The position numbers and the translations under genes are program-made. From Myxococcota bacterium (GTDB lineage Bacteria; Myxococcota_A; Bradymonadia; UBA7976; UBA1532), in assembly GCA_018813065.1 (NCBI GenBank), contig JAHJCH010000342.1:1-52335 (forward strand): DNA of 52,335 nt. Direction: 5' to 3'. Below are positions 681 to 13,229 of this stretch, in pieces. Under the pieces are notes generated by a model. That model worked only from the letters and a program-made list of their open reading frames with translations. It searched no databases and was not told where the DNA came from. Every line of letters begins with the position of its first letter. Position 1 is the first letter of the stretch.

Positions 681-813
681 GGGGGAGTTGCCTAATGGAA
701 AAGGCACTGATTTTCGGAATCAGCTTTACGCAACCGCTCGTACACTCGATCGCCGCAGGGTGATCAACCGCATGAGCATACACGCTATTCAGGTTCGAAT
801 CCTGACTCCTCCA
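681..813 (+). ncRNA. Type A tRNA-like RNA 1 (variable-region insertion, anticodon UCG)
   Basis: A cloverleaf is visible: acceptor GGGGGAG (681-687) with CTCCTCC (806-812), D arm with GCC/GGC, anticodon stem CTGAT (707-711) with ATCAG (719-723), loop TTTCGGA with TCG at 714-716, and T arm TCAGG-TTCGAAT-CCTGA (789-805). The discriminator is A813 and no CCA is encoded. Between anticodon and T stems sit 65 bases instead of the usual 4-24. This insert has an outer helix GCTC (736-739)/GAGC (774-777) and an inner hairpin GATCGCC-GCAG-GGTGATC (748-765). Between them lie CACTC (743-747) and AACCG (766-770), the internal loop seen in the neighbouring Y-like RNAs. It ends one base before RNA B1, so the pair is probably cut from one transcript. 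Probably not an ordinary translating tRNA; a Ro60 ligand is inferred. Confidence 0.8.
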
Positions 814-814
814 C

Positions 815-939
815 TAAAGCGCGTAACTGAAAATACTTACATGCGTAGCTCACTCTGGTAGAGCATTAGCTTTGGGAGCTAAGGGTTGCTGGTTCGATTC
901 CAGTCGCAAAAATTAACGTATTTTCTCTCACGCGCTTTA
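815..939 (+). ncRNA. Type B Y RNA-like RNA 1 with tRNA-like domain
   Basis: The ends pair over 10 bp (815-824 with 930-939). After an internal loop AACT/TCTC a second 8-bp helix follows, GAAAATAC (829-836) with GTATTTTC (918-925). It leads to a tRNA-like domain with only a 4-bp acceptor, TGCG (842-845)/CGCA (905-908), a 4-bp D stem GCTC/GAGC, anticodon stem TTAGC/GCTAA with loop TTTGGGA (TGG at 873-875), and T arm GCTGG-TTCGATT-CCAGT (888-904). The tRNA fold is internal to the RNA, so it has no free 3' acceptor end and cannot be charged. This is the plan of YrlA-type bacterial Y RNAs: a Ro60-binding stem carrying a tRNA mimic. A T-rich stretch follows the stem (936-945). Confidence 0.82.
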
Positions 940-947
940 TTTTTCAT

Positions 948-1081
948 GGAGGAGTGGCCTAATGGTAAAGGCACTGATTTGCAATATCAGCTTTATGCAC
1001 CTGCTCTCGCGCTCGATCACCGCAGGGTGATCAACTGAGATGAGCATACACGCTCTCCAGGTTCGAATCCTGGCTCCTCCA
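948..1081 (+). ncRNA. Type A tRNA-like RNA 2 (variable-region insertion, anticodon GCA)
   Basis: Acceptor GGAGGAG (948-954) pairs perfectly with CTCCTCC (1074-1080), and A1081 is the discriminator with no CCA. Anticodon stem CTGAT (974-978)/ATCAG (986-990) holds loop TTGCAAT with GCA at 981-983. The T arm is CCAGG-TTCGAAT-CCTGG (1057-1073). The 66-base variable insert has helix TGCTC (1002-1006)/GAGCA (1042-1046), internal loop strands CGCTC (1010-1014) and AACTG (1033-1037), and a perfect 7-bp hairpin GATCACC-GCAG-GGTGATC (1015-1032). It is about 75% identical to RNA A1, with paired changes in the helices. B2 begins one base after the discriminator. Confidence 0.82.
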
Positions 1082-1082
1082 C

Positions 1083-1203
1083 AAGAGCACATAACCGATG
1101 GTACTTACACGCAAAGTCTAATGGTTGGACGTTAGCCTCTCAAGCTAAAGTTGTCGGTTCGATTCCGGCTGCAATACCCAAGTATCACCTCTCATGTGCT
1201 CTT
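1083..1203 (+). ncRNA. Type B Y RNA-like RNA 2 with tRNA-like domain
   Basis: The terminal 10-bp helix (1083-1092 with 1194-1203, AAGAGCACAT/ATGTGCTCTT) has a sequence unrelated to those of B1 and B3 but identical length. Internal loop AACCG (1093-1097) opposite CTCTC (1189-1193), then an inner 8-bp helix TGGTACTT (1099-1106)/AAGTATCA (1180-1187). The tRNA-like domain has a 3-bp acceptor GCA/TGC (1111-1113, 1170-1172), D stem GTCT/GGAC, anticodon stem TTAGC/GCTAA with loop CTCTCAA (CTC at 1139-1141), and T arm GTCGG-TTCGATT-CCGGC (1153-1169). The truncated acceptor continues through a bulged junction into the Y-like stem, so this RNA cannot act as an amino-acid acceptor. Confidence 0.82.
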
Positions 1204-1215
1204 CTTTTCATCTAT

Positions 1216-1348
1216 CGGGGAGTGGCCAAATTGGTAAAGGCGCTGATCTTGAGAATCAGTTGATCACCCGCTTTCGCTCTCAAACGCCGCAGGGCGTTTT
1301 ATCGCGTTAAGCATACAAGCTCTCCAGGTTCGAATCCTGGCTCCCCGA
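1216..1348 (+). ncRNA. Type A tRNA-like RNA 3 (variable-region insertion, anticodon UGA)
   Basis: Acceptor CGGGGAG (1216-1222) pairs perfectly with CTCCCCG (1341-1347); discriminator A1348, no CCA. Anticodon stem CTGAT (1243-1247)/ATCAG (1255-1259), loop CTTGAGA with TGA at 1250-1252. T arm CCAGG-TTCGAAT-CCTGG (1324-1340). The insert differs in sequence from A1 and A2 but keeps the fold: outer helix GCTT (1270-1273)/AAGC (1309-1312), internal loop strands CTCTC (1277-1281) and TATCG (1300-1304), hairpin AAACGCC-GCAG-GGCGTTT (1282-1299). The change of all seven pairs around an unchanged GCAG loop is strong evidence that the hairpin is selected. Anticodon UGA would read Ser, and Ser tRNAs have long variable arms, so descent from a Ser tRNA is possible. 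Confidence 0.82.
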
Positions 1349-1380
1349 CTACAGATTCTCTCTCAAAATGCTTAGAAATG

Positions 1381-1503
1381 GCGCATGGACAACCGCTTAT
1401 GCTCACAAGCATAGCTCAACGGTAGAGCAACAGACTGAAACTCTGTATGTTGCGGGTTCAATCCCCGTTGCCTGAACAACAGCATAAGCTCTCGTCCATG
1501 CGC
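1381..1503 (+). ncRNA. Type B Y RNA-like RNA 3 with tRNA-like domain
   Basis: Terminal 10-bp helix GCGCATGGAC (1381-1390)/GTCCATGCGC (1494-1503), internal loop AACCG (1391-1395) opposite CTCTC (1489-1493), inner 8-bp helix CTTATGCT (1396-1403)/AGCATAAG (1481-1488). The tRNA-like domain has 3-bp acceptor GCA/TGC (1409-1411, 1469-1471), D stem GCTC/GAGC, anticodon stem ACAGA/TCTGT with loop CTGAAAC (GAA at 1437-1439), and T arm GCGGG-TTCAATC-CCCGT (1452-1468). Unlike the first two pairs it is separated from its type A partner by about 32 bases. The 111 bases between it and the Ro60-like gene show no clear promoter, so the protein may be made from the same transcript. Confidence 0.8.
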
Positions 1504-1614: not shown

Positions 1615-3504
1615 ATGCAGCACGAGATGCAAGCGCGCCTAGAGGCCCTCGGCCCAGCGGAGCGGCTGCTCAAGATCCTCTCCAACTTTACGGATCACCT
1701 TGTCCACCACCGGCCCGGACTGATCACGCCCGATCCCAACAGCCCCATCGGGGTGAAGTGGGCGCCTGCGGCCTGGAAGGAGAAGGACGGCAAGCGCATC
1801 GTCTCCACCAAGGGGCGTGGGGGCCGCGTCATCGGCGTGCTCGGCGAGGACGGCGTCCACGTCTACTCCGAGGGCAAGGCCGTCGGCGCGCTGCGGCCCG
1901 CTGGCAAGGTCTTCCCCGAGGTGGCCGCCTACCTCTACAAGCAGATCGCCGAGATTTATCAGATGGATAATGAGCTGGCGGCCCGCTTCGCCTCTTGGGC
2001 CTTTGCGCGTGAGCATCGCGATCTTAAGGTCGTTTTGGCTGCGTTTATGCTCGTTCAGGAGCGCAAGGGTGATCCTATCGTCGAAGACGGTGAGGTTCTG
2101 TTCAATGATGAGGATTATCGGGAGGTGGGTGAGGCCATCTGCCTCGTGCGCGCCAAGCACGACCTTAACCCCAAGCTCCTCTTGCGCGTCGCCGAGGTCC
2201 TAGAGCTGCCCGAGATCGCCGCCATCAACCGCGAGCTGGGCTTTGGCCAGAGCACGCGCAGCCCGGCGATGGGCCGCTACCGCAAGACCGTGCGCCGCTG
2301 GCTGGCCTACCGCGAGGACAACCCCAAGATGCTTGAGGGCCTCGTGCGCGCGGGCTTCAAGGAGACGGTCAAGGCCCTGGCGCGCAAGGTCGGCTATCGC
2401 CCCAAGAGCGCGCGCTTCTTCGAGGTCCTGCGCTGGAAGCAGAAGCAGGCGCAGGATGGCCGCCGCCGCTTGGCCATCGGCGCCGCTGTCGCCGAGGCTG
2501 AGCGCTGGGATGATCTCGATGAGCGCGCCATCTGCGAGCGGATCATCAAGACCAAGCCCAACTACAAGCGCGTGGTGGGCCTGCTCCCCGTGGAGATCGG
2601 CCTGACCCGCGCGGTGATGGCCGCCTGCGTGGAGGCGGGTTCTCTCTCTGACGCGGATCTGATCATCCTGACGCCCACGCTGGAGGAGCTGGATCTGCTC
2701 AAGGTGCCCAGCGTCGAGCAGCGGTGGAAGAAGGCGCTGAGCAAGGCCCAGGATCGGCGCGCGGCCAACGTGGCCCGCAACGTCAAGTCCCAGGGCGCCC
2801 GTGAGCAGCTGCGCGACGCGGCGGACGTGGCCACGGCCAAGACCATGAGCGCCGTGACCGAGCACCTGCGCGTCTATGTGATGGTGGACAAGTCCAGCTC
2901 CATGCAGGGCGCCTTGGAGAAGGCCAAGGCGTACCTTACGCAGCTCTTGGTGGCCTTCCCGCTGGAGCGCCTGCACGTCTCGGTGTTCAACACGCTGGGC
3001 AAGGAGTTGAAGATCCGCGCGGCCAAGGGCGTGGCCGTGGAGCACGCCTTTAAGGGGCACGCGGCGGGGGGCGGCACCAGCTATGACGCGGGCGTCACCG
3101 CGCTGCGCCACCACAAGCCCAAGCCGGGCGAGGACGCGCTGTTTATCTTTGTCGGCGACGAGGAGGACTTCAGCGGGTACAAGCCGCTCTACAAGGCGGT
3201 GGTGGACTCGGGGATCGCGCCGGTGGCCTTTGGGCTGCTCAAGATCACCAGCAATGGCAAAGAGAACAACTACCACGTGGTCACGGAGACGGCCCAAGCC
3301 CTTAATATCCCTTGCTTTCCCATCAGCGAGGAGATGTTCCATGGCGATCCTTATGCCGCGCCGCGCATCCTGCGTGATCTGATCGCCTCGACCCCCGTCG
3401 GCGGCGGGGTGGCGCCCAGCAGCGCCAGCGCGCCGCCCTTGCTACAGGAGATCCTCAACACCGAGTTGCTGACGGCCCCAGCCTGGGTCAAGGTGGCCGG
3501 GTGA
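1615..3504 (+). CDS. rsr: Ro60-like RNA-binding protein (TROVE-type helical domain plus vWA)
   Basis: A 629-residue protein whose start is fixed by AAAGGAG (1601-1607) seven bases before ATG 1615. The first 400 or so residues are mostly helical and basic, fitting a divergent TROVE (HEAT-like ring) domain. The last third is a von Willebrand A domain with a full MIDAS: DKSSS (D425), Thr488 in GGGTS, and D515 in GDEED. Ro60 proteins are rings that bind Y RNAs on the outside and the 3' ends of misfolded RNAs in the central hole. In bacteria they act with exonucleases such as PNPase in RNA decay and rRNA maturation. I do not see textbook TROVE sequence motifs, so this is a divergent member. The six Y-like/tRNA-like RNAs directly upstream are the best support for the call. 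Overlaps the next gene by four bases. Confidence 0.78.
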   Translation: MQHEMQARLEALGPAERLLKILSNFTDHLVHHRPGLITPDPNSPIGVKWAPAAWKEKDGKRIVSTKGRGGRVIGVLGEDGVHVYSEGKAVGALRPAGKVFPEVAAYLYKQIAEIYQMDNELAARFASWAFAREHRDLKVVLAAFMLVQERKGDPIVEDGEVLFNDEDYREVGEAICLVRAKHDLNPKLLLRVAEVLELPEIAAINRELGFGQSTRSPAMGRYRKTVRRWLAYREDNPKMLEGLVRAGFKETVKALARKVGYRPKSARFFEVLRWKQKQAQDGRRRLAIGAAVAEAERWDDLDERAICERIIKTKPNYKRVVGLLPVEIGLTRAVMAACVEAGSLSDADLIILTPTLEELDLLKVPSVEQRWKKALSKAQDRRAANVARNVKSQGAREQLRDAADVATAKTMSAVTEHLRVYVMVDKSSSMQGALEKAKAYLTQLLVAFPLERLHVSVFNTLGKELKIRAAKGVAVEHAFKGHAAGGGTSYDAGVTALRHHKPKPGEDALFIFVGDEEDFSGYKPLYKAVVDSGIAPVAFGLLKITSNGKENNYHVVTETAQALNIPCFPISEEMFHGDPYAAPRILRDLIASTPVGGGVAPSSASAPPLLQEILNTELLTAPAWVKVAG

Positions 3505-4043
3505 GCGCCTGGGAGGCGCTGTTGGGCGGCGAGGCCCCTCATCAGGTGATGCCTTGGGTGGGCGGGCGGCGGCTGAGCGATGGGCGTCAAGCCTGGAAGC
3601 TCCAAGGCGCGCTGCCGCCCGCGCCGGGCTGGTATGCCTTCAAGCTCAGCGGGCGCCGCGCGCAGCTGATCGGCCCTGCCGAGGCGGATGTGGACTTTGA
3701 GGATGAGCATCCCAACGTGATTGGCTACCTGATCGGCGATCGCCTCGTGCCTGTGGACGCGCGGGTTGATCCTGATCCGGCGCGCTTGGTGAGCCAGAGT
3801 CGGCGTGTGTACCTCGTGGAGGGTCAGCCTGAGCGCTTCTCGCGGGTGATCACGGTGGCGCTGGGCGAGGCGCTGATCTTCTGCCGCGCCCTCTTCCCCG
3901 AGGGGCCGGAGCTGGACGTGCTCGCCGCCTATCAAGCGGGCGCCGACAGCGTGCGTGAGATCAAAGGCGTCACCCCCGCCCTGGAGCTGGCCTTCCGCGC
4001 CGCGCGCCACCTGGCGCCTGAGGAGAAGGCATCCCTTTATTGA
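3501..4043 (+). CDS. Unknown protein translationally coupled to the Ro60-like gene
   Basis: A 180-residue soluble protein starting with GTG 3501, which overlaps the stop of the Ro60-like gene (GTGA), so the two are almost certainly co-translated. It begins MSAWEALLGGEAPHQVMPWV and has no signal peptide, membrane segment or Cys-rich motif. The first 130 residues look like alternating beta-strands (GWYAFKLSGRRAQLIGP, NVIGYLIGDRLVP) and the last 40 are helical (ALELAFRAARHLAPEEKASLY). I do not recognise the family. Tight coupling suggests a stable partner or regulator of the Ro60-like protein. It overlaps the convergent gene on the other strand by seven bases. Confidence 0.85.
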   Translation: MSAWEALLGGEAPHQVMPWVGGRRLSDGRQAWKLQGALPPAPGWYAFKLSGRRAQLIGPAEADVDFEDEHPNVIGYLIGDRLVPVDARVDPDPARLVSQSRRVYLVEGQPERFSRVITVALGEALIFCRALFPEGPELDVLAAYQAGADSVREIKGVTPALELAFRAARHLAPEEKASLY

Positions 4044-5776: not shown

Positions 5777-6055
5777 CTCGCCTCCTCTTGTGTGGCGCGG
5801 GCAGCGTATCGCGCGTCGGCGCTGAGCCCAAGCCATACGCTTTACGCTGAGCGTGTTTATCCCCAGGGCGGGCCAGCGCCTTATTCGAGGGCGGTGTTTA
5901 GGAACACAAAAAGATTGCCCCTCGCGGCGAAGGCGTTTAATTGACCTTGCGCTCCCGACTCGGCGAACCCCCTGGGTTCACCTCACTCACGGCCCTTGTC
6001 CGCAGCGCGGCCAAGATCATCGCGGGAGAAGCCCTCTACCCATGGGTCCGCCTCG
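5777..6055. other. Divergent intergenic region
   Basis: This 279-base stretch separates the minus-strand FGE-fold gene from the plus-strand MBOAT gene and must hold both promoters. A TTGACC (5941) could be a -35 on the plus strand, but I see no good -10 partner. A small inverted repeat GTGTT-TAGG-AACAC lies near 5891-5905. No gene or RNA can be supported here. Confidence 0.5.
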
Positions 6056-7459
6056 ATGGTCTTTTCAAGCATCACATTCCTCTATCTCTTCTTGCCACTT
6101 AACCTGCTGATCTACTTCCTCTCTCCAAGCCGAGATCTGCGCAATATCGTCACCGTTTTCTTTTCATTTGTTTTTTATACCTGGGGCGAGCCTGTTTGGA
6201 TCACATTGCTCATCTTCTCCAGCACGCTGGATTATGTCATCGGCAAGGTGATTCAAAAAAATAGGAACACATGGCGAGCACAAGCCGCGCTCGCCACTTC
6301 AATCACGCTCAATCTGAGCTTGCTTGGCGTTTTTAAATATAGTGGCTTTATCGTTGATACAATCAATCAAGCGCTTTCACTCAACATTGTAATCAATCAG
6401 TTTTCATTGCCCATCGGGATTTCATTTTATACGTTTCAAACCATCTCGTATGTCGTCGATGTCTATCGCAATGATACAAAAGCGGAGTCATCCTATCTTA
6501 GATTCTTAATGTTTGTGAGCCTTTATCACCAGCTCGTCGCCGGGCCAATCGTGCGCTATCGCGATATCGCCGATGAGATATTGGAGCGTGAACACAGCTA
6601 TAGCAATTTTGCGCGGGGCTTTCATCGCTTTATGATCGGGCTTTTAAAGAAAGTCTTGATCGCGAATGTGGCCGGAGAGCTGGTTGTTCAGTATTTAGAT
6701 GGCGATTTTGGCGTTCTATCTGTCGCAGAGGGCTGGTTCGGGCTCTTGATGTACTCGATTCAGATCTATTTTGATTTCTCAGGATATTCTGATATGGCGA
6801 TTGGACTGGGTTTAATGATCGGCTTTCACTATCAAGAGAACTTTCAATACCCATATATCTCAAAATCAGTCACGGAGTTTTGGCGCCGGTGGCATATCTC
6901 CTTGGGCTCATTCTTTAGAGATTATGTTTATATCCCGCTGGGCGGGAACCGACGCTGGGCCTATCGCAACCTGTTTGTGATCTGGGGGCTGACGGGCCTC
7001 TGGCACGGCGCGAGCTGGAACTTCGTGCTCTGGGGGCTCTACTACGGGCTCTTGATCTTCATCGAAAAAGCCTTCCTGTTGCGGCTGCTGCGGCGCCTCC
7101 CGGCGGTCCTCGCCCACGCCTACCTCTTGTTCTTCGCCGTCCTCGGCTGGTCGCTGTTCTACTTCACCGATCTGGGGCGGCTGCTCGACTATCTGCGCGT
7201 CATCTTTGGACAAACCGACGCGGCGCTGCTTGGCCCCTCGCTGCTCAATGTCATGGCGGGGCACGCCGGTTGGTTGATCCTCGCCATCTGCTTCAGCGCG
7301 CCGCTCTATCCCAAGATCGCCGCGCGGCTGCGCCGCCTGCCGCTGCGTGAGGCCCACGCTCATGCGTTGATCCTCGCCGTCGATTTGCTGATGCTGCTCA
7401 TCGCCACGTCCATGCTGGTGGGCAAGAGCTACAACCCCTTCCTCTACTTTAGGTTCTGA
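6056..7459 (+). CDS. MBOAT family O-acyltransferase (AlgI-like)
   Basis: 468 residues starting MVFSSITFLYLFLPLNLLIYF at ATG 6056; the frame is open further upstream but that part is not hydrophobic or conserved in style. About ten membrane segments are visible. The family hallmarks are present: SLYHQLVAGPIVRY, FDFSGYSDMAIGLGLMIGF, FWRRWHISLGSFFRDYVYIPLGG, and the catalytic His317 in GLWHGASWNF. AlgI-type MBOATs move acyl groups, usually acetyl, across the inner membrane for O-acetylation of exopolysaccharide, alginate, cellulose or wall polymers. The DHHW protein five bases downstream is the usual periplasmic partner. The first 870 bases are AT-rich and the rest GC-rich, with a sharp change near 6930. 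Confidence 0.93.
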   Translation: MVFSSITFLYLFLPLNLLIYFLSPSRDLRNIVTVFFSFVFYTWGEPVWITLLIFSSTLDYVIGKVIQKNRNTWRAQAALATSITLNLSLLGVFKYSGFIVDTINQALSLNIVINQFSLPIGISFYTFQTISYVVDVYRNDTKAESSYLRFLMFVSLYHQLVAGPIVRYRDIADEILEREHSYSNFARGFHRFMIGLLKKVLIANVAGELVVQYLDGDFGVLSVAEGWFGLLMYSIQIYFDFSGYSDMAIGLGLMIGFHYQENFQYPYISKSVTEFWRRWHISLGSFFRDYVYIPLGGNRRWAYRNLFVIWGLTGLWHGASWNFVLWGLYYGLLIFIEKAFLLRLLRRLPAVLAHAYLLFFAVLGWSLFYFTDLGRLLDYLRVIFGQTDAALLGPSLLNVMAGHAGWLILAICFSAPLYPKIAARLRRLPLREAHAHALILAVDLLMLLIATSMLVGKSYNPFLYFRF

Positions 7460-7464
7460 GATCC

Positions 7465-8889
<1,425 letters not shown>

Positions 8890-8927
8890 GGCACCACGCC
8901 CGCCCCTTCTCATCCCCATTAGGACCT

Positions 8928-11900
8928 ATGCGCACCTCAACCGAGAGCACCACGCTGTACCTCAGCGCCCTCCTCCTCGCCGTAGGCTGCCAAGCCGATC
9001 CCGCCGAGGCCCCGGACGCCGCCACGATCACGATCACCGATCGGGGCTACGCGCCGCCGGTGGATCGCGGGCTCATCGACGCGGCCTGGCCCGATGACGC
9101 CGCGCTGGACGCCGCCGTGGACGCCGCCCCGCCCGACGCCGCCCCACCGCCCGCCTGCGCGGACGGCGTGGACAATGACGGCGATGGGCGGGTGGACCAC
9201 CCCGATGATCCCGACTGCGAGGGCCCCGAGGGCACAGACGAGGCGGGGCCACCCCCGCCGCAGTGCAGCGACGGGCTGGACAATGACGGCGATGATCGCG
9301 TGGACCTGGAGGACCCTGATTGCCTCAACCACCTCGACGGCTTGGAGGAGGGGGGCAACCCAGAGGTCGCCTGCGCCAACGGGATCGACGATGACGGCGA
9401 CGGCTACGCCGACTTCCCCCTCGATCCCGGCTGCGCGGCGGCGGGCGATAACGATGAGCTGGACCCCGCGGTGCCCCGCGCCTGCGCCAACGGCGCCGAT
9501 GATGACGAGGACGGCCTGATCGACTACCCCAATGATCCCGGCTGCGCGGGGCGCGGCGACGCCGATGAGGCCGATCCCCGCCCCCTGCCCCGCTGCGCCA
9601 ACGGGATCGACGATGACGACGATGCGCTGATCGATTTCCCCCAAGATCCAGGCTGCCACGGCGCGGGGGACTGGACCGAGGGCAGCCTCTGCCCTGGCTC
9701 CGAGGGCATCATCAACCTCAACGAGGCGGGCGGCGACTACACCGGCGCGCTGCCCGGCGACAGCCTGCACCTGGGCTCCTGCGGCGGCGCGGCGGGCGGC
9801 GAGGCCATCTTCCTGTGGCGCGTCGAGGCGCCCATCTCTGAGCTGGCCTTCAGCACAGCGCACCCCGAGACGGACAAGCCCACCGTCCTCTATGTCCGCC
9901 GCGCCTGCGAGATGGCCGAGGATCTGGCCTGTAACCGAGGCACGAGCGCGGCGCCGGGCACGCACGTCATCCTCAACAACCCCGCGCCGGGCCTCTACTA
10001 CGTCTTCGTAGACACCAGCAGCCGCGATCTGGGGCCAGGCGCCTTTCGGATCACCGCCGGGGAGCTGCCCGCGCCCGCCTGCCGCGATGAGGAGGACAAC
10101 GACGAGGACGGCCTGATCGACCTGCTCGATCCGGGCTGCGTCGAGCCTGAAGATCCAGACGAGGCCGACCCTGATCCGCTGCCGGAGTGCGGCGACGGCC
10201 TGGACAATGACGGCGATGGGCGCGTGGACTACCCCAGCGATCCGCAGTGCGCGGCGGCGGGCGGCGCGCAGGAGGCGGTCCTCTGCGATCTGCCCCTCGA
10301 CGCCGATCCCATCGAGATCGGCCAGGCGGGCGGCCAAGCGGCGCTGCGGCTGATGGGCGCCGAGGGCGTGGCGCAGGGCAGCTGCGGCGGCGAGGGCGGC
10401 GCGGAGGAGGTGGTCATCCTGACCCTGGATCACCCCTCGGACATGATCCTCGACATCGCCGATCCGCTCGGCGAGGCGGCCCCCGTGGCGGTCTATGTGC
10501 GCGCGGCCTGTGAGGACAGCGCCAGCGAGCAGTTTTGTGAGCGCGCGCCGCTGCGCCTTATCGGCGAGGCGCTGTCGGCGGGCCGCTACTTCTTCTTCTT
10601 CGATCACCTCAGCGCGGGGCCGGCCCCGGCCAACGTGCTGGTGGACTTCAACATCACCAGCCTGGTCACCGAGTGCAATGACGAGGTGGACAACGACGAT
10701 GACGGGCTGATCGACCTCTACGATCCGGGCTGCGAGGGGGGGCGCGACACCTCAGAGCGGGACGTGGGCCTCAGCTTCCCCTGCGCCGATGGCGTGGACA
10801 ATGACGGCGATGGCCTGGTGGACTACCCCGACGACGACGGCTGCGCGGCGGCGGGGGACGACGACGAGGCCTTCGCCTGCCTCCTGCTCACGGACATCCC
10901 CCGCGTGGAGGGCAACGGGCGCCTCGATGTCAACGTCCAAGACAACACCTACGGCGGCGCCTGCGACAGCAACAATGACTCCCCCGAGGCGGTGGTTGAG
11001 CTGCGCCTGGAGGTGCCCACGGCGGTGGAGCTGGAGACGGTCAGCGGCGGCTTTGACACCAAGCTCTCCATCCGCCGCGTCTGCGATGAGGACGCCTCGG
11101 AGTTTGGCTGCAATGACGACGGCGGCGAGGGCGTGCTCTCGCTGCTGAGCTTCTCGCGCTTGGAGGCGGGCAGCTACTTTGTCTTCGTCGAGGCCTTTGG
11201 CAGCAGCACGGGCAACGTCACCTTGGAGGTGCGCACCACCCCGATCCCGCTCTTTGAGTGTGAGGACGGCGCGGACAACGACGGCGATGGGCGCGTGGAC
11301 GAGGCCGATCCGGGTTGCCGCTTTAGCTATGACGACGATGAGCTTGATCCAGATCCGCTGCCCGAGTGCGGCGACGGCGTGGACAACGACGGCGATGGGG
11401 CCACGGACTGGCCCGATGATCCGGGCTGCCGCCGCGCGGGCGCGGGCGCTGAAGATCCGCTGTGCGCCGCCCATGAGGTGACGGTGATCCCTGAGGAGGG
11501 CGGCGAGCTGAGCTTTGATCTCGATCCAGATCGCCTCTCGCTGACGACGGGCAGCTGTAGCCCAGGGCTTGGGCCAGAGGCGGCCTTTGTGATCGATCTG
11601 ACGCGCCTCTCGCGCGTGCATCTCACGCTAAACCAGCCCGGTATGATGTTCATCCGCGCCGCTTGTGATGACAGCGCCAGTGAAGTCACCTGTACGACCA
11701 GCCAGGACATCGAGTTGGACATGGTCCCTGCCGGGCGCTACTTCCTTTTTGTCAAGAACACCTGGGGGACGCCGCCCAGCCGCTTAACGGTGGCGGTGAC
11801 GAGCCTGGAGACCGAGTGCAATGACGGCGTGGACAATGACGCGGATGGCTTGGTGGATCTGCTTGATCCGGGCTGCCTCCAACCGCTGAGCCCCAGCGAG

Positions 11901-13229
11901 GACGATCCGGCGGTGCGTCCGCAGTGCGCCGACGGGCTCGACAATGACGACAATGGTCTGATCGACTACCCCGATGATCTGGGCTGCACCTCGGCGGGGG
12001 ACACCGAGGAGGCGCTGCGCTGCCTGGGGCGTGAGATCTCGGAGACGGTGCATCAAGAGAGCGCGGGCTTTACGCTCAACCTCTCGGGGGCCAGCGCCTA
12101 TGCCTGTGACTTTCAGGGGAGCGGGCCGGAGCGCGTGGTCGCCATTGTCTTAGAGCAGCCATCGCGCCTCCAGGCGGAGACGACGGAGGGCTTTGACACG
12201 GTGCTGCACCTGCGCGGCGCCTGTGACGATCCAGATACGGAGCTGGCCTGCAATGATGATGGCGGCGAGGGCACCTTATCATTGATCACCATCAATCGCT
12301 TGGAGCCGGGGATCTACTTCCTGTTTGTTGACGCCTACAGCTCAAGCGCCTCTGGGGAAGTGCGGGTGGAGATCGACATCGAGTCGTTGGGGCCGCCGCC
12401 GCCCACCGCCTGCGCGGATGGCGTCGATAATGACGGCGACGGGCTGGTTGATCTGGATGATCCAGGCTGCGCCAACGCCTCGGATAACAATGAGTACAAC
12501 GCCCCCCCACCCGCGTGCGCTGATGGCGCCGATAATGACGGCGATGGCCTGGTGGATCACCCCGAAGATCCCGGCTGCGACGCCCCCGAGGACGAGGACG
12601 AGGCCGATCCCCTGCCCGCGTGCAGCGATGGCGCCGATAATGACGGCGATGGCCTGGTGGATCACCCCGAAGATCCCGGCTGCGACGCCCCCGAGGACGA
12701 GGATGAGGCCGATCCCCTGCCCGCGTGCAGCGATGGCGCCGATAATGACGGCGATGGCCTGGTGGATCACCCCGAAGATCCCGACTGCGTTCGCCCCGAG
12801 GATGAAGCGGAGGCCCCCGCGCCAGCCTGTATGGACGGCGAGGATAATGATGGTGATGGCCTCGTAGACCTCGAAGATGAGGGCTGCGCCTCCCCTCTGG
12901 ATCGCGATGAGCAGGATGGCGTCGAAGATGTCTGCGCCGATGGCTTGGATAATGACGAGGATGACTTGATCGACGCCGATGATCCCGGCTGCGCCAGCCC
13001 CCAAGATGATGATGAGGCCGACGCCCCACACCCCGCCTGCGTTGATGGGCTCGATAATGATGAGGATGGCCTCATCGACGCCGATGATCCCGGCTGCGCC
13101 CACCCCCTCGATGAGGATGAGCTGGACGGCACCCTCCCCGCCTGCGCCGATGGGCTCGATAATGATGAGGATGGCCTCATCGACGCCGATGATCCCGGCT
13201 GCGCTTACCCCCTCGACGCCTCCGAGTAA
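8928..13229 (+). CDS. Giant Asp-rich repeat lipoprotein with PPC-like modules
   Basis: 1433 residues from ATG 8928; an alternative ATG at 8886 overlaps the previous stop (ATGA), but 8928 gives a compact signal peptide ending LLLAVGC, a lipobox. The mature protein has 21 copies of a roughly 35-residue unit of the form CADGVDNDGDGLVD-xxPDDPGC-xxxxDxDE. Each has two Cys, likely disulfide-bonded, and an acidic DNDGDG loop resembling calcium-binding loops. Five beta-rich modules of about 75 residues are interspersed after pairs of units; the pattern DTVLHLRGACDDP...ELACNDDGGEG...LEPGIYFLFVDAYSSS resembles bacterial pre-peptidase C-terminal (PPC) domains. The last eight units are uninterrupted. A calcium-stiffened surface stalk or adhesin is inferred. 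It may form one unit with the O-acetylation genes, but that is uncertain. Confidence 0.88.
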   Translation: MRTSTESTTLYLSALLLAVGCQADPAEAPDAATITITDRGYAPPVDRGLIDAAWPDDAALDAAVDAAPPDAAPPPACADGVDNDGDGRVDHPDDPDCEGPEGTDEAGPPPPQCSDGLDNDGDDRVDLEDPDCLNHLDGLEEGGNPEVACANGIDDDGDGYADFPLDPGCAAAGDNDELDPAVPRACANGADDDEDGLIDYPNDPGCAGRGDADEADPRPLPRCANGIDDDDDALIDFPQDPGCHGAGDWTEGSLCPGSEGIINLNEAGGDYTGALPGDSLHLGSCGGAAGGEAIFLWRVEAPISELAFSTAHPETDKPTVLYVRRACEMAEDLACNRGTSAAPGTHVILNNPAPGLYYVFVDTSSRDLGPGAFRITAGELPAPACRDEEDNDEDGLIDLLDPGCVEPEDPDEADPDPLPECGDGLDNDGDGRVDYPSDPQCAAAGGAQEAVLCDLPLDADPIEIGQAGGQAALRLMGAEGVAQGSCGGEGGAEEVVILTLDHPSDMILDIADPLGEAAPVAVYVRAACEDSASEQFCERAPLRLIGEALSAGRYFFFFDHLSAGPAPANVLVDFNITSLVTECNDEVDNDDDGLIDLYDPGCEGGRDTSERDVGLSFPCADGVDNDGDGLVDYPDDDGCAAAGDDDEAFACLLLTDIPRVEGNGRLDVNVQDNTYGGACDSNNDSPEAVVELRLEVPTAVELETVSGGFDTKLSIRRVCDEDASEFGCNDDGGEGVLSLLSFSRLEAGSYFVFVEAFGSSTGNVTLEVRTTPIPLFECEDGADNDGDGRVDEADPGCRFSYDDDELDPDPLPECGDGVDNDGDGATDWPDDPGCRRAGAGAEDPLCAAHEVTVIPEEGGELSFDLDPDRLSLTTGSCSPGLGPEAAFVIDLTRLSRVHLTLNQPGMMFIRAACDDSASEVTCTTSQDIELDMVPAGRYFLFVKNTWGTPPSRLTVAVTSLETECNDGVDNDADGLVDLLDPGCLQPLSPSEDDPAVRPQCADGLDNDDNGLIDYPDDLGCTSAGDTEEALRCLGREISETVHQESAGFTLNLSGASAYACDFQGSGPERVVAIVLEQPSRLQAETTEGFDTVLHLRGACDDPDTELACNDDGGEGTLSLITINRLEPGIYFLFVDAYSSSASGEVRVEIDIESLGPPPPTACADGVDNDGDGLVDLDDPGCANASDNNEYNAPPPACADGADNDGDGLVDHPEDPGCDAPEDEDEADPLPACSDGADNDGDGLVDHPEDPGCDAPEDEDEADPLPACSDGADNDGDGLVDHPEDPDCVRPEDEAEAPAPACMDGEDNDGDGLVDLEDEGCASPLDRDEQDGVEDVCADGLDNDEDDLIDADDPGCASPQDDDEADAPHPACVDGLDNDEDGLIDADDPGCAHPLDEDELDGTLPACADGLDNDEDGLIDADDPGCAYPLDASE
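12510..12824 (+). repeat. Three near-identical 105-bp tandem copies
   Basis: Starting at CCCGCG at 12510, 12615 and 12720, three consecutive 105-base units encode almost the same 35 residues (PACSDGADNDGDGLVDHPEDPGC...). The nucleotide sequence, including third codon positions, is nearly identical between copies, unlike the other 18 units of the same protein. This points to very recent duplication or gene conversion. Confidence 0.9.

Follow-up and report, generated by a model that had tools for sequence, protein, structure and literature searches.

Six tRNA-like RNAs beside a Ro60-like gene

A contig of a Myxococcota bacterium (JAHJCH010000342.1, assembly GCA_018813065.1), analysed over its whole length of 52,335 bases and called the window below, carries six tRNA-type RNAs at positions 681-1503 and, downstream on the same strand, a gene at 1615-3504 for a protein that is Ro60-like by its predicted fold. 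The RNAs are of two types, A and B, and both join a tRNA-like body to one shared module. As read from sequence, this module architecture and the co-occurrence of the RNAs with the protein are very probably real, and it is probable that the RNAs are ligands of the Ro60-like protein. On the full proposal, that the six tRNA-like bodies with their common module act as tRNA decoys on the protein encoded beside them, we are evenly divided.

The assembly amounts to 5.75 Mb in 361 contigs and is 89.6% complete. A preliminary description, drawn from the letters of the window alone, had placed six tRNA-like RNAs here in three A-B pairs, and this is borne out: the Rfam tRNA model RF00005 matches all six above its gathering score of 29 bits (cmscan). 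The A RNAs (A1, 681-813, 47.5 bits; A2, 948-1081, 54.5 bits; A3, 1216-1348, 52.7 bits) align across the entire tRNA model and carry ~60 extra bases in the variable loop. The matches in the B RNAs cover their bodies (B1, 842-908, 49.1 bits; B2, 1111-1172, 45.4 bits; B3, 1405-1476, 59.5 bits), in which the D, anticodon and T arms are present, the acceptor has ~3-5 base pairs (bp) and the ends form long helices. The tRNA-like domain ascribed earlier to the B RNAs is thus upheld by the Rfam match, but its acceptor stem is shorter than that account had it. ARAGORN detected B1 and B3 in the array and missed the other four.

In a search with a covariance model built from B RNAs (R1), the top three matches in the genome are B1 (815-939, 100.2 bits), B2 (1083-1203, 87.1 bits) and B3 (1381-1503, 104.6 bits), which are also training members of that model; the fourth-ranked match scores 63.4 bits. 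One base separates A1 from B1 (814) and A2 from B2 (1082), as had been reported, and 32 bases separate A3 from B3. Each RNA folds more stably than nearly all of 200 dinucleotide shuffles, with z scores of -4.0, -3.2 and -3.6 for A1 to A3 and of -4.0, -2.9 and -5.6 for B1 to B3. The minimum-energy folds of A2 and A3 miss some of the cloverleaf and module stems, which rest on model alignments and comparison. The B bodies are flanked by inverted repeats of 22-24 nucleotides (nt) that are 79-88% complementary.

One module in two arrangements

Alignment of A and B RNAs from the window and related loci reveals a common module that runs tRNA part, linker, P2, CUC (often then G), P1, usually AAxx, P2', YACA(A/C)G, tRNA part. 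In A RNAs a small loop closes P1, the tRNA ends are free and the module lies within the variable loop. In B RNAs it is the tRNA body that closes the structure, on the opposite side, and P1 is left open, its strands being the RNA's own ends. The two layouts, as they appear from the alignments, are circular permutations of each other.

All six window RNAs lie on the forward strand. A1 has a 7-bp acceptor, an anticodon loop at 712-718 (UCG) and a module at 736-785 in its variable loop, composed of P2 (736-741/772-777), CUC, P1 (748-754/759-765), AACCG and AUACACGC; this module is seen in the minimum-energy fold. A2 and A3 share this layout, with anticodons GCA and UGA. The module of A2 (1002-1053) comprises P2 (1002-1006/1042-1046), P1 (1015-1021/1026-1032) and UACACGC, and the minimum-energy fold pairs its P2 region otherwise; that of A3 (1270-1320) comprises P2 (1270-1273/1309-1312), P1 (1282-1288/1293-1299) and AUACAAGC. 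A second covariance model, R2, built from A RNAs and including these three as training members, scores them at 107.1, 104.8 and 99.0 bits. B1 consists of P1 (815-824/930-939), P2 (829-836/918-925), UUACAUGC, a 4-bp acceptor and the anticodon UGG. B2 has P1 at 1083-1092/1194-1203, P2 at 1099-1106/1180-1187, a ~3-bp acceptor and the anticodon CUC, and B3, which with its full end stem spans 1380-1504, has P1 at 1380-1390/1494-1504, P2 at 1395-1403/1481-1489, CACAAGC and the anticodon GAA. Departures from the module consensus are the loop strand after P1 in A3, UAUC instead of AAxx, and UUACAUGC in B1.

The pairing of the module is supported well beyond the window. Requiring only the B motif followed by D and T arms, a script returned 57 B RNAs for the forward strand of the family loci; for their reverse strand it returned zero. 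In those 57, the flanks pair with a mean of -28.7 kcal/mol, versus -17.2 (standard deviation 5.2) for swapped flanks. The B alignment has both-sided changes in 25 of 29 pairs and a covariation score of 0.733, versus 0.208 when shuffled and at most 0.154 when slid; the score is inflated, as the B training set was chosen by a script requiring end-stem pairing, a requirement absent from the 57-RNA test. For A RNAs, P2 pairing reaches -8.3 with the RNA's own strands versus -4.6 when swapped, and the P1 fold -9.8 versus -3.3 when shuffled. Covariation among homologues, which had been named beforehand as a check, was accordingly found for the B helices, and the module helices outpair swapped ones. 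Chance structure is ruled out by the shuffles, the swapped flanks and the reverse-strand control. An ordinary tRNA cluster is ruled out because inserts, end stems and the pairing within them are seen again from locus to locus. A looser scan for the A module, based on motif and stems alone, was unspecific (328 forward and 169 reverse matches) and is excluded from all counts.

A further stem may surround the A RNAs of the window. The arms at 655-671 and 1353-1369 on the forward strand form a 17-nt inverted repeat, 94% complementary, around A1-A3, with a duplex energy of -22.7 kcal/mol versus -20.2 for the best among sampled other stretches. These arms, with UCACAUCG after them, match the order P1 - loop - P2. 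It is as if a B-type module had originally surrounded just one A RNA, ahead of a tandem duplication. As a general feature of A RNAs the outer stem is rejected: their flanks pair no better (-12.5) than swapped ones (-12.3), which leaves the window stem as a single weak case. Just upstream of the array, at 598-636, a GC-rich hairpin followed by a T run looks by eye like the terminator of a transcript from upstream and is absent from the scan's list; a promoter scan gave results at chance level.

tRNA-like bodies and their decoding features

How far do these bodies still resemble tRNAs that decode? Among the B RNAs of the family loci, anticodon loops are ordinary, with 7 nt in 51 of 55 and U33 in 48 of 51. 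An acceptor of at least 6 pairs is possible in 17 of 57 B bodies, versus 259 of 284 ARAGORN tRNAs from the same loci, a control made up of those of the 499 ARAGORN calls that the script could parse and biased by ARAGORN towards full acceptor stems. A RNAs show a complete acceptor in 62 of 63 (partly a selection effect, as the finding model favours it), 7-nt loops in 41 of 59, U33 in 26 of 41 and U8 in 40 of 63. These counts cover 63 of 72 A RNAs, nine having been dropped, five because their module is within or close to the anticodon loop and four as short, odd or duplicate; the automatic parse misread A3 of the window. In the window, the complete 7-bp acceptor is present in the A RNAs and absent from the B RNAs. 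A1-A3 have an identical anticodon stem with loops for UCG, GCA and UGA. Loop divergence exceeds that of the rest of the RNA in A1-A2 (p 0.01), A2-A3 (p 0.005) and B1-B2 (p 0.03), not in A1-A3 (p 0.23).

These features bear on the idea that the RNAs are intron-like precursors, from which the module is excised in A and trimmed in B to give normal translation tRNAs. Inspection by eye places the module in the anticodon loop of four A-type RNAs (in L018, in L022 and twice in L077) and perhaps of a fifth (L062:2524); in the others it is in the variable loop. Archaeal tRNA introns occur in both of these loops, and the nearly universal A acceptor also fits, with the selection noted above. The short acceptors of most B bodies do not fit, and A bodies often break the U8, U33 and loop-length rules. 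In addition, 8 of 51 B RNAs have Leu or Ser anticodons, none of them with a long variable loop, a point with a weak control, since only 3 of 6 parsed ordinary Leu/Ser tRNAs had one. We consider maturation into normal tRNAs very unlikely.

A Ro60-like protein outside the Pfam TROVE family

The gene at 1615-3504 on the forward strand encodes 629 amino acids (aa), with a mostly helical N-terminal part and a C-terminal vWA domain predicted by AlphaFold2 and Foldseek. The AlphaFold2 model, made with 15 relatives, has a pLDDT of 77.9 and a pTM of 0.47, the latter leaving the domain placement uncertain. The top six Foldseek matches are all TROVE/Ro60 chains (9kop, 1yvp A and B, 9l5y from phage phiLo, 2i91 and 1yvr), at E values of 5.7e-9 to 1.9e-6 over 538-569 columns, with query TM scores of 0.29-0.38 and root-mean-square deviations of 10-14. 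The vWA domain is present in the window protein. The Pfam TROVE family (PF05731) has no match in it, in any of the 15 relatives at E up to 1, or elsewhere in its own genome, so TROVE membership by sequence is ruled out. The earlier proposal of a Ro60-like neighbour therefore stands on the predicted fold, with the best E value at 5.7e-9, and fails by Pfam. A separate PDB structure listing for the protein gives vWA-type chains alone, which does not exclude TROVE. Searching the PDB by sequence gave nothing useful; PHROGs has no match for the window proteins and unnamed or weak matches for relatives.

Co-occurrence of the RNAs and the protein

Relatives of the protein number at least 1236 at E 0.001 or better, and among the matches listed 119 others are 53-61% identical. 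Of 377 genomes sampled from the phylum, 17 encode the protein. It also occurs at 28 loci in named genomes and at 55 on viral contigs, 26 of the latter on contigs of at least 200 kb; an initial contig scan with a single protein query had returned no loci. One of 50,697 phage records has it: Virus Rctr197k, whose protein is 52% identical and annotated merely as similar to a conserved hypothetical protein. Upstream of that gene lie 30 annotated tRNA genes, downstream a ThiF-like gene, and an unannotated stretch of the record contains a B RNA scoring 85.5 bits.

The two covariance models, trained on family loci (31 sequences for A and 36 for B), were run over 87 sources, training members giving scores that are not independent. 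A or B RNAs are found in 50 of the 87, which after deduplication means 69 A and 63 B RNAs in 50 loci. All 75 R2 matches to A RNAs lie on the strand of the protein gene, and 44 are outside the training set (three of these in the near-duplicate L097). R1 found 58 B RNAs at 75.7-118 bits, 22 outside training, and five at 61-70 bits that fall within the score range of protein-free genomes (up to 74.1). By source, A or B RNAs occur in 33 of 46 loci from viruses and 17 of 38 from bacteria, counts that omit nine near-duplicate or cut viral loci of the 55, L101, and the short L001, L002 and L004-L009.

Across the 377 genomes, where the best eight candidates per genome were scored, R2 at E up to 1e-9 matched eight, all with the protein. 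R1 at 80 bits or more gave 12 matches in seven genomes, again all with the protein, and the best score in a protein-free genome, among the matches listed, is 74.1 bits; the 80-bit line was set after this score gap was seen. Taken together, 10 of 10 genomes with strong RNA matches carry the protein (p ~1e-15 if genomes are independent), and all nine genomes with a protein at least 53% identical have A or B RNAs. Co-occurrence, which the preliminary description had named as a check, is thereby found for the Ro60-like protein. Its suggestion that the array is a ligand set for the neighbouring protein gains partial support: the RNAs track the protein, the B helices covary and the module pairing fits, but membership in YrlA (see below) and in Pfam TROVE fails.

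Close A-B spacing also recurs. Among the 69 A and 63 B RNAs there are 19 A-B pairs with gaps of 1-4 nt, in 18 loci, and six B-A neighbours within 12 nt (gaps 6-12 nt). The recurrent 1-4 nt gap suggests joint transcription and a shared cut between A and B. A or B RNAs also occur on contigs of an assembly other than the one with the protein gene (G277:C20, G178:C256, G245:C742 and C34, G309:C216 and G227:C507), which may reflect a second array or a broken assembly.

The operon in large phages and its predicted reduced form in the window

Clustering of open reading frames (ORFs) around the loci identified conserved followers of the protein gene, mostly on the same strand. The second gene of this operon, G2, encodes ~320 aa in which a beta-rich region, one long helix and a small alpha-beta region are predicted; the other followers are a JAB protease, a small protein ending in RPKTPFG, and ThiF/E1. 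Of the 38 viral loci whose flanks are complete, 30 have A or B RNAs, 38 G2, 34 JAB, 25 the RPKTPFG-type tail and 28 E1; the 6-kb flanks can miss the ends of longer operons. ThiF matches two proteins at 80 bits, and Prok-JAB matches two at 25.5 and 29 bits and a third at 24.2 (cut-off 25). The small RPKTPFG-tail protein has no Pfam ubiquitin-like match. An E2-like C-terminus of G2 is rejected: the AlphaFold2 model is a confident one, with a pLDDT of 92.5, but Foldseek found no match at E 0.001 or better. The PDB structure listing for G2 contains no E2, in a listing that barely covers the C-terminal part.

The window gene at 3501-4043 on the forward strand aligns with the N-terminal half of G2 (180 aa; 40% identical to the L025 homologue across 152 aa), and the C-terminal half of the relatives is absent. 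L025 is a locus of the culturable Paraliomyxa miuraensis SMH-27-4 and has a B RNA at 9124-9245. No E1, JAB or tail protein lies beside the window genes, and no further copy of G2 was found in the genome. From this gene content, the window locus is predicted to be a chromosomal, reduced form of the large-phage operon.

Is it then a relic, what is left of an integrated phage operon that is decaying and no longer has a role? The truncation of G2, with no other copy found, and the want of adjacent operon genes agree with this. The 629-aa reading frame is intact, however, and aligns along its full length with relatives at 53-60% identity, and P1 and P2 are kept in all six RNAs. We regard decay as quite unlikely. 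The operon also raises the possibility of a ubiquitin-like tagging guide, in which the phage RNAs bring tRNA-binding proteins to the Ro60-like ring for tagging by E1, JAB and candidate ubiquitin-like proteins, the window being a stripped-down form. The prevalence of G2, JAB, E1 and the RPKTPFG-type tail, the ThiF and Prok-JAB profile matches and the ThiF-like gene of Virus Rctr197k all speak for such a guide. The window genes lack these neighbours, the small protein lacks a ubiquitin-like match and the E2-like end of G2 found no support from Foldseek, and we judge this reading unlikely.

Several further observations stand apart from these questions. Rfam scans of part of the window and 25 loci placed tRNA and one tmRNA alone above cut-off; the tmRNA gene (RF00023, 116.5 bits, L076:11865-12243) lies inside the tRNA array of a viral contig. 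HNH-like ORFs, recognised by eye, are interleaved with the tRNA arrays and the operon in L047, L049, L058, L059 and others, forming clusters of 24 ORFs from 16 loci and 12 ORFs from 11 loci. One relative of the Ro60-like protein, P0061, is 1043 aa long with intein/homing endonuclease domains (PF14528, PF14890).

Relation to known Ro60 and Y RNA systems

The preliminary description had associated the RNAs with the YrlA class of bacterial Y RNAs, and this does not hold. With Infernal, the Rfam YrlA model (RF02553) reaches 22.4 bits on the array, versus a gathering score of 69 bits, and lies out of register across A1-B1. Over the whole genome its best score is 35.3 bits, overlapping ordinary tRNA genes. 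Membership is ruled out by score. A sub-threshold YrlA-like match of 32.5 bits lies at G000:C247:6964-7068, on a contig without a tRNA match.

The array nevertheless resembles YrlA in combining a Ro-type stem with a tRNA-like module, in a gene beside a Ro60-type gene. In the Rfam consensus of YrlA, a CUAC strand precedes the T arm and ACUUG occurs on the 3' strand of the stem; both are close to the UACAAGC and CUCG of the array, a resemblance and not a test. Unlike YrlA, the array bodies include an anticodon arm, the module is placed within a complete tRNA in A and at its ends in B, and up to six RNAs share the window locus in A-B pairs. The protein in turn resembles Ro60/Rsr (TROVE, PF05731), including the Ro60 of Thermus phage phiLo (PDB 9l5y), in its predicted helical part plus vWA domain, and differs in the absence of a TROVE match from 15 relatives and in being followed by G2, JAB and E1 in phage contigs.

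ROT/TROVE proteins occur in a subset of tRNA-bearing jumbo phages, where, in the part of Iyer et al. 2021 (PMC7824862) used here, they are described as providing a platform on which RNA is repaired, together with a tRNA-like partner. Such phages share with our loci a Ro-type protein in a tRNA-bearing genome; arrays with a built-in module are not described in that part of the paper, and the words JAB, ThiF and Ubl are absent from its main text. Phage-borne tRNA genes counter tRNA-cutting defences, in one case with altered anticodon loops (PMC10264068, PMC11555353, both in excerpt). Those act as tRNAs, whereas the array RNAs look like mimics in a Ro60-like ribonucleoprotein (RNP). For module permutations, A-B arrays, the TROVE-divergent family and the operon, we found no description in a literature search of incomplete coverage. 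The array thus belongs to a known kind, Ro60 with tRNA-mimicking Y RNAs, of which it is a new variant, and we make no claim of a first report. The earlier suggestion that an array of six is undescribed holds in so far as no such arrays were found in print, but the array is not special to this genome: it is a member of a family that many large phage contigs carry. Burroughs and Aravind are said to have noted, in 2016, a novel tRNA-like partner RNA in RNA-repair operons.

In Deinococcus radiodurans, a Y RNA tethers Rsr to PNPase (PMC7790460, as given in the portion of that paper drawn on). This precedent defines the main rival to a decoy role, in which the RNAs would act as the Deinococcus Y RNA does: they would cover or gate the Ro60-like ring, and their tRNA-like part would tether an exonuclease such as PNPase, so that structured RNA is degraded or matured. 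Besides the printed case, the Ro60-like predicted fold and the plan of constant stem module plus tRNA-like head agree with it. A gate does not account for several anticodons and two permuted forms per locus, or for normal B anticodon loops despite the loss of the acceptor, and no exonuclease was identified among the conserved neighbours, of which several smaller gene clusters are unannotated. We rate it as possible and rather unlikely.

A proposed role as tRNA decoys

In the decoy reading, which we favour, the module would dock each RNA on the Ro60-like protein. The module is constant and the tRNA-like head variable, which makes the former the likely docking site and the latter the part shown to others. 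A heads keep the acceptor and elbow and would display the acceptor/T-arm face, B heads keep the anticodon loop and would display the anticodon face, and the two types combined would present both tRNA faces while not supplying the ribosome. In what would be the simplest use, both types are bait, occupying enzymes that cut or modify tRNA. Such use fits carriage by phages with tRNA arrays. The relaxed decoding features, namely the short B acceptors and the A relatives that break the U33 and 7-nt rules, would also count for it, and there is precedent in print (Hughes et al.; PMC7790460). For the decoy role taken by itself the scales are close to level, if anything tipping slightly towards doubt.

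A number of findings weigh against it. A or B RNAs are present in fewer than half of the bacterial loci (the 17 of 38 above), many of them short, and in eight of the 38 full viral loci the surrounding 6 kb contains neither type. Seven of the 17 protein-encoding genomes lack a strong RNA match, six with relatives at 44-47% identity and one at 33%. In A RNAs, P2 pairs better than the 5th percentile of swapped pairs in just 29 of 69. All six window RNAs retain a 7-nt anticodon loop with U33, so the window A RNAs could still be usable tRNAs, and the B anticodon loops generally obey normal rules, which decoys do not need. Four of the six window anticodons duplicate ordinary tRNAs of the genome; Glu-CUC and Phe-GAA tRNAs were not found elsewhere in this ~90% complete assembly. 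A B anticodon is shared with an ordinary tRNA of the same fetched stretch in just 9 of 51 cases, so redundancy of anticodons is not general. Finally, a pure decoy does not explain why E1 is also encoded in 28 of the 38 viral loci with full flanks.

The phage E1 and JAB genes hint at a possible tagging of captured proteins. In the fullest version of the decoy reading, a Ro60-like ring of large phages, with paired acceptor- and anticodon-type mimics, would capture host defence enzymes that attack tRNA and pass them to ubiquitin-like tagging by E1, JAB and the tail protein, and the bacterium would have domesticated the capture half with six anticodon baits; to this we give a low probability.

The findings extend Ro60-Y RNA biology to a family of at least 1236 relatives missed by Pfam TROVE, and to RNAs whose Ro-type module has apparently been moved around the tRNA by circular permutation. 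Large phages with tRNA arrays offer a setting in which the role of the tRNA-like part of bacterial Y RNAs can be tested. Should the decoy reading be true, phage tRNA arrays hold a second, non-decoding layer that has been called ordinary or odd tRNAs or missed by tRNA finders.

Other genes of the window

Two further features of the window lie downstream. At 5996-8889, an MBOAT acyltransferase adjoins a DHHW/AlgX-like protein, likely a polysaccharide O-acetylation pair. A 1447-aa ORF at 8886-13229 contains many repeats of the CADGxDNDGDGxxDYPxDPGC type.

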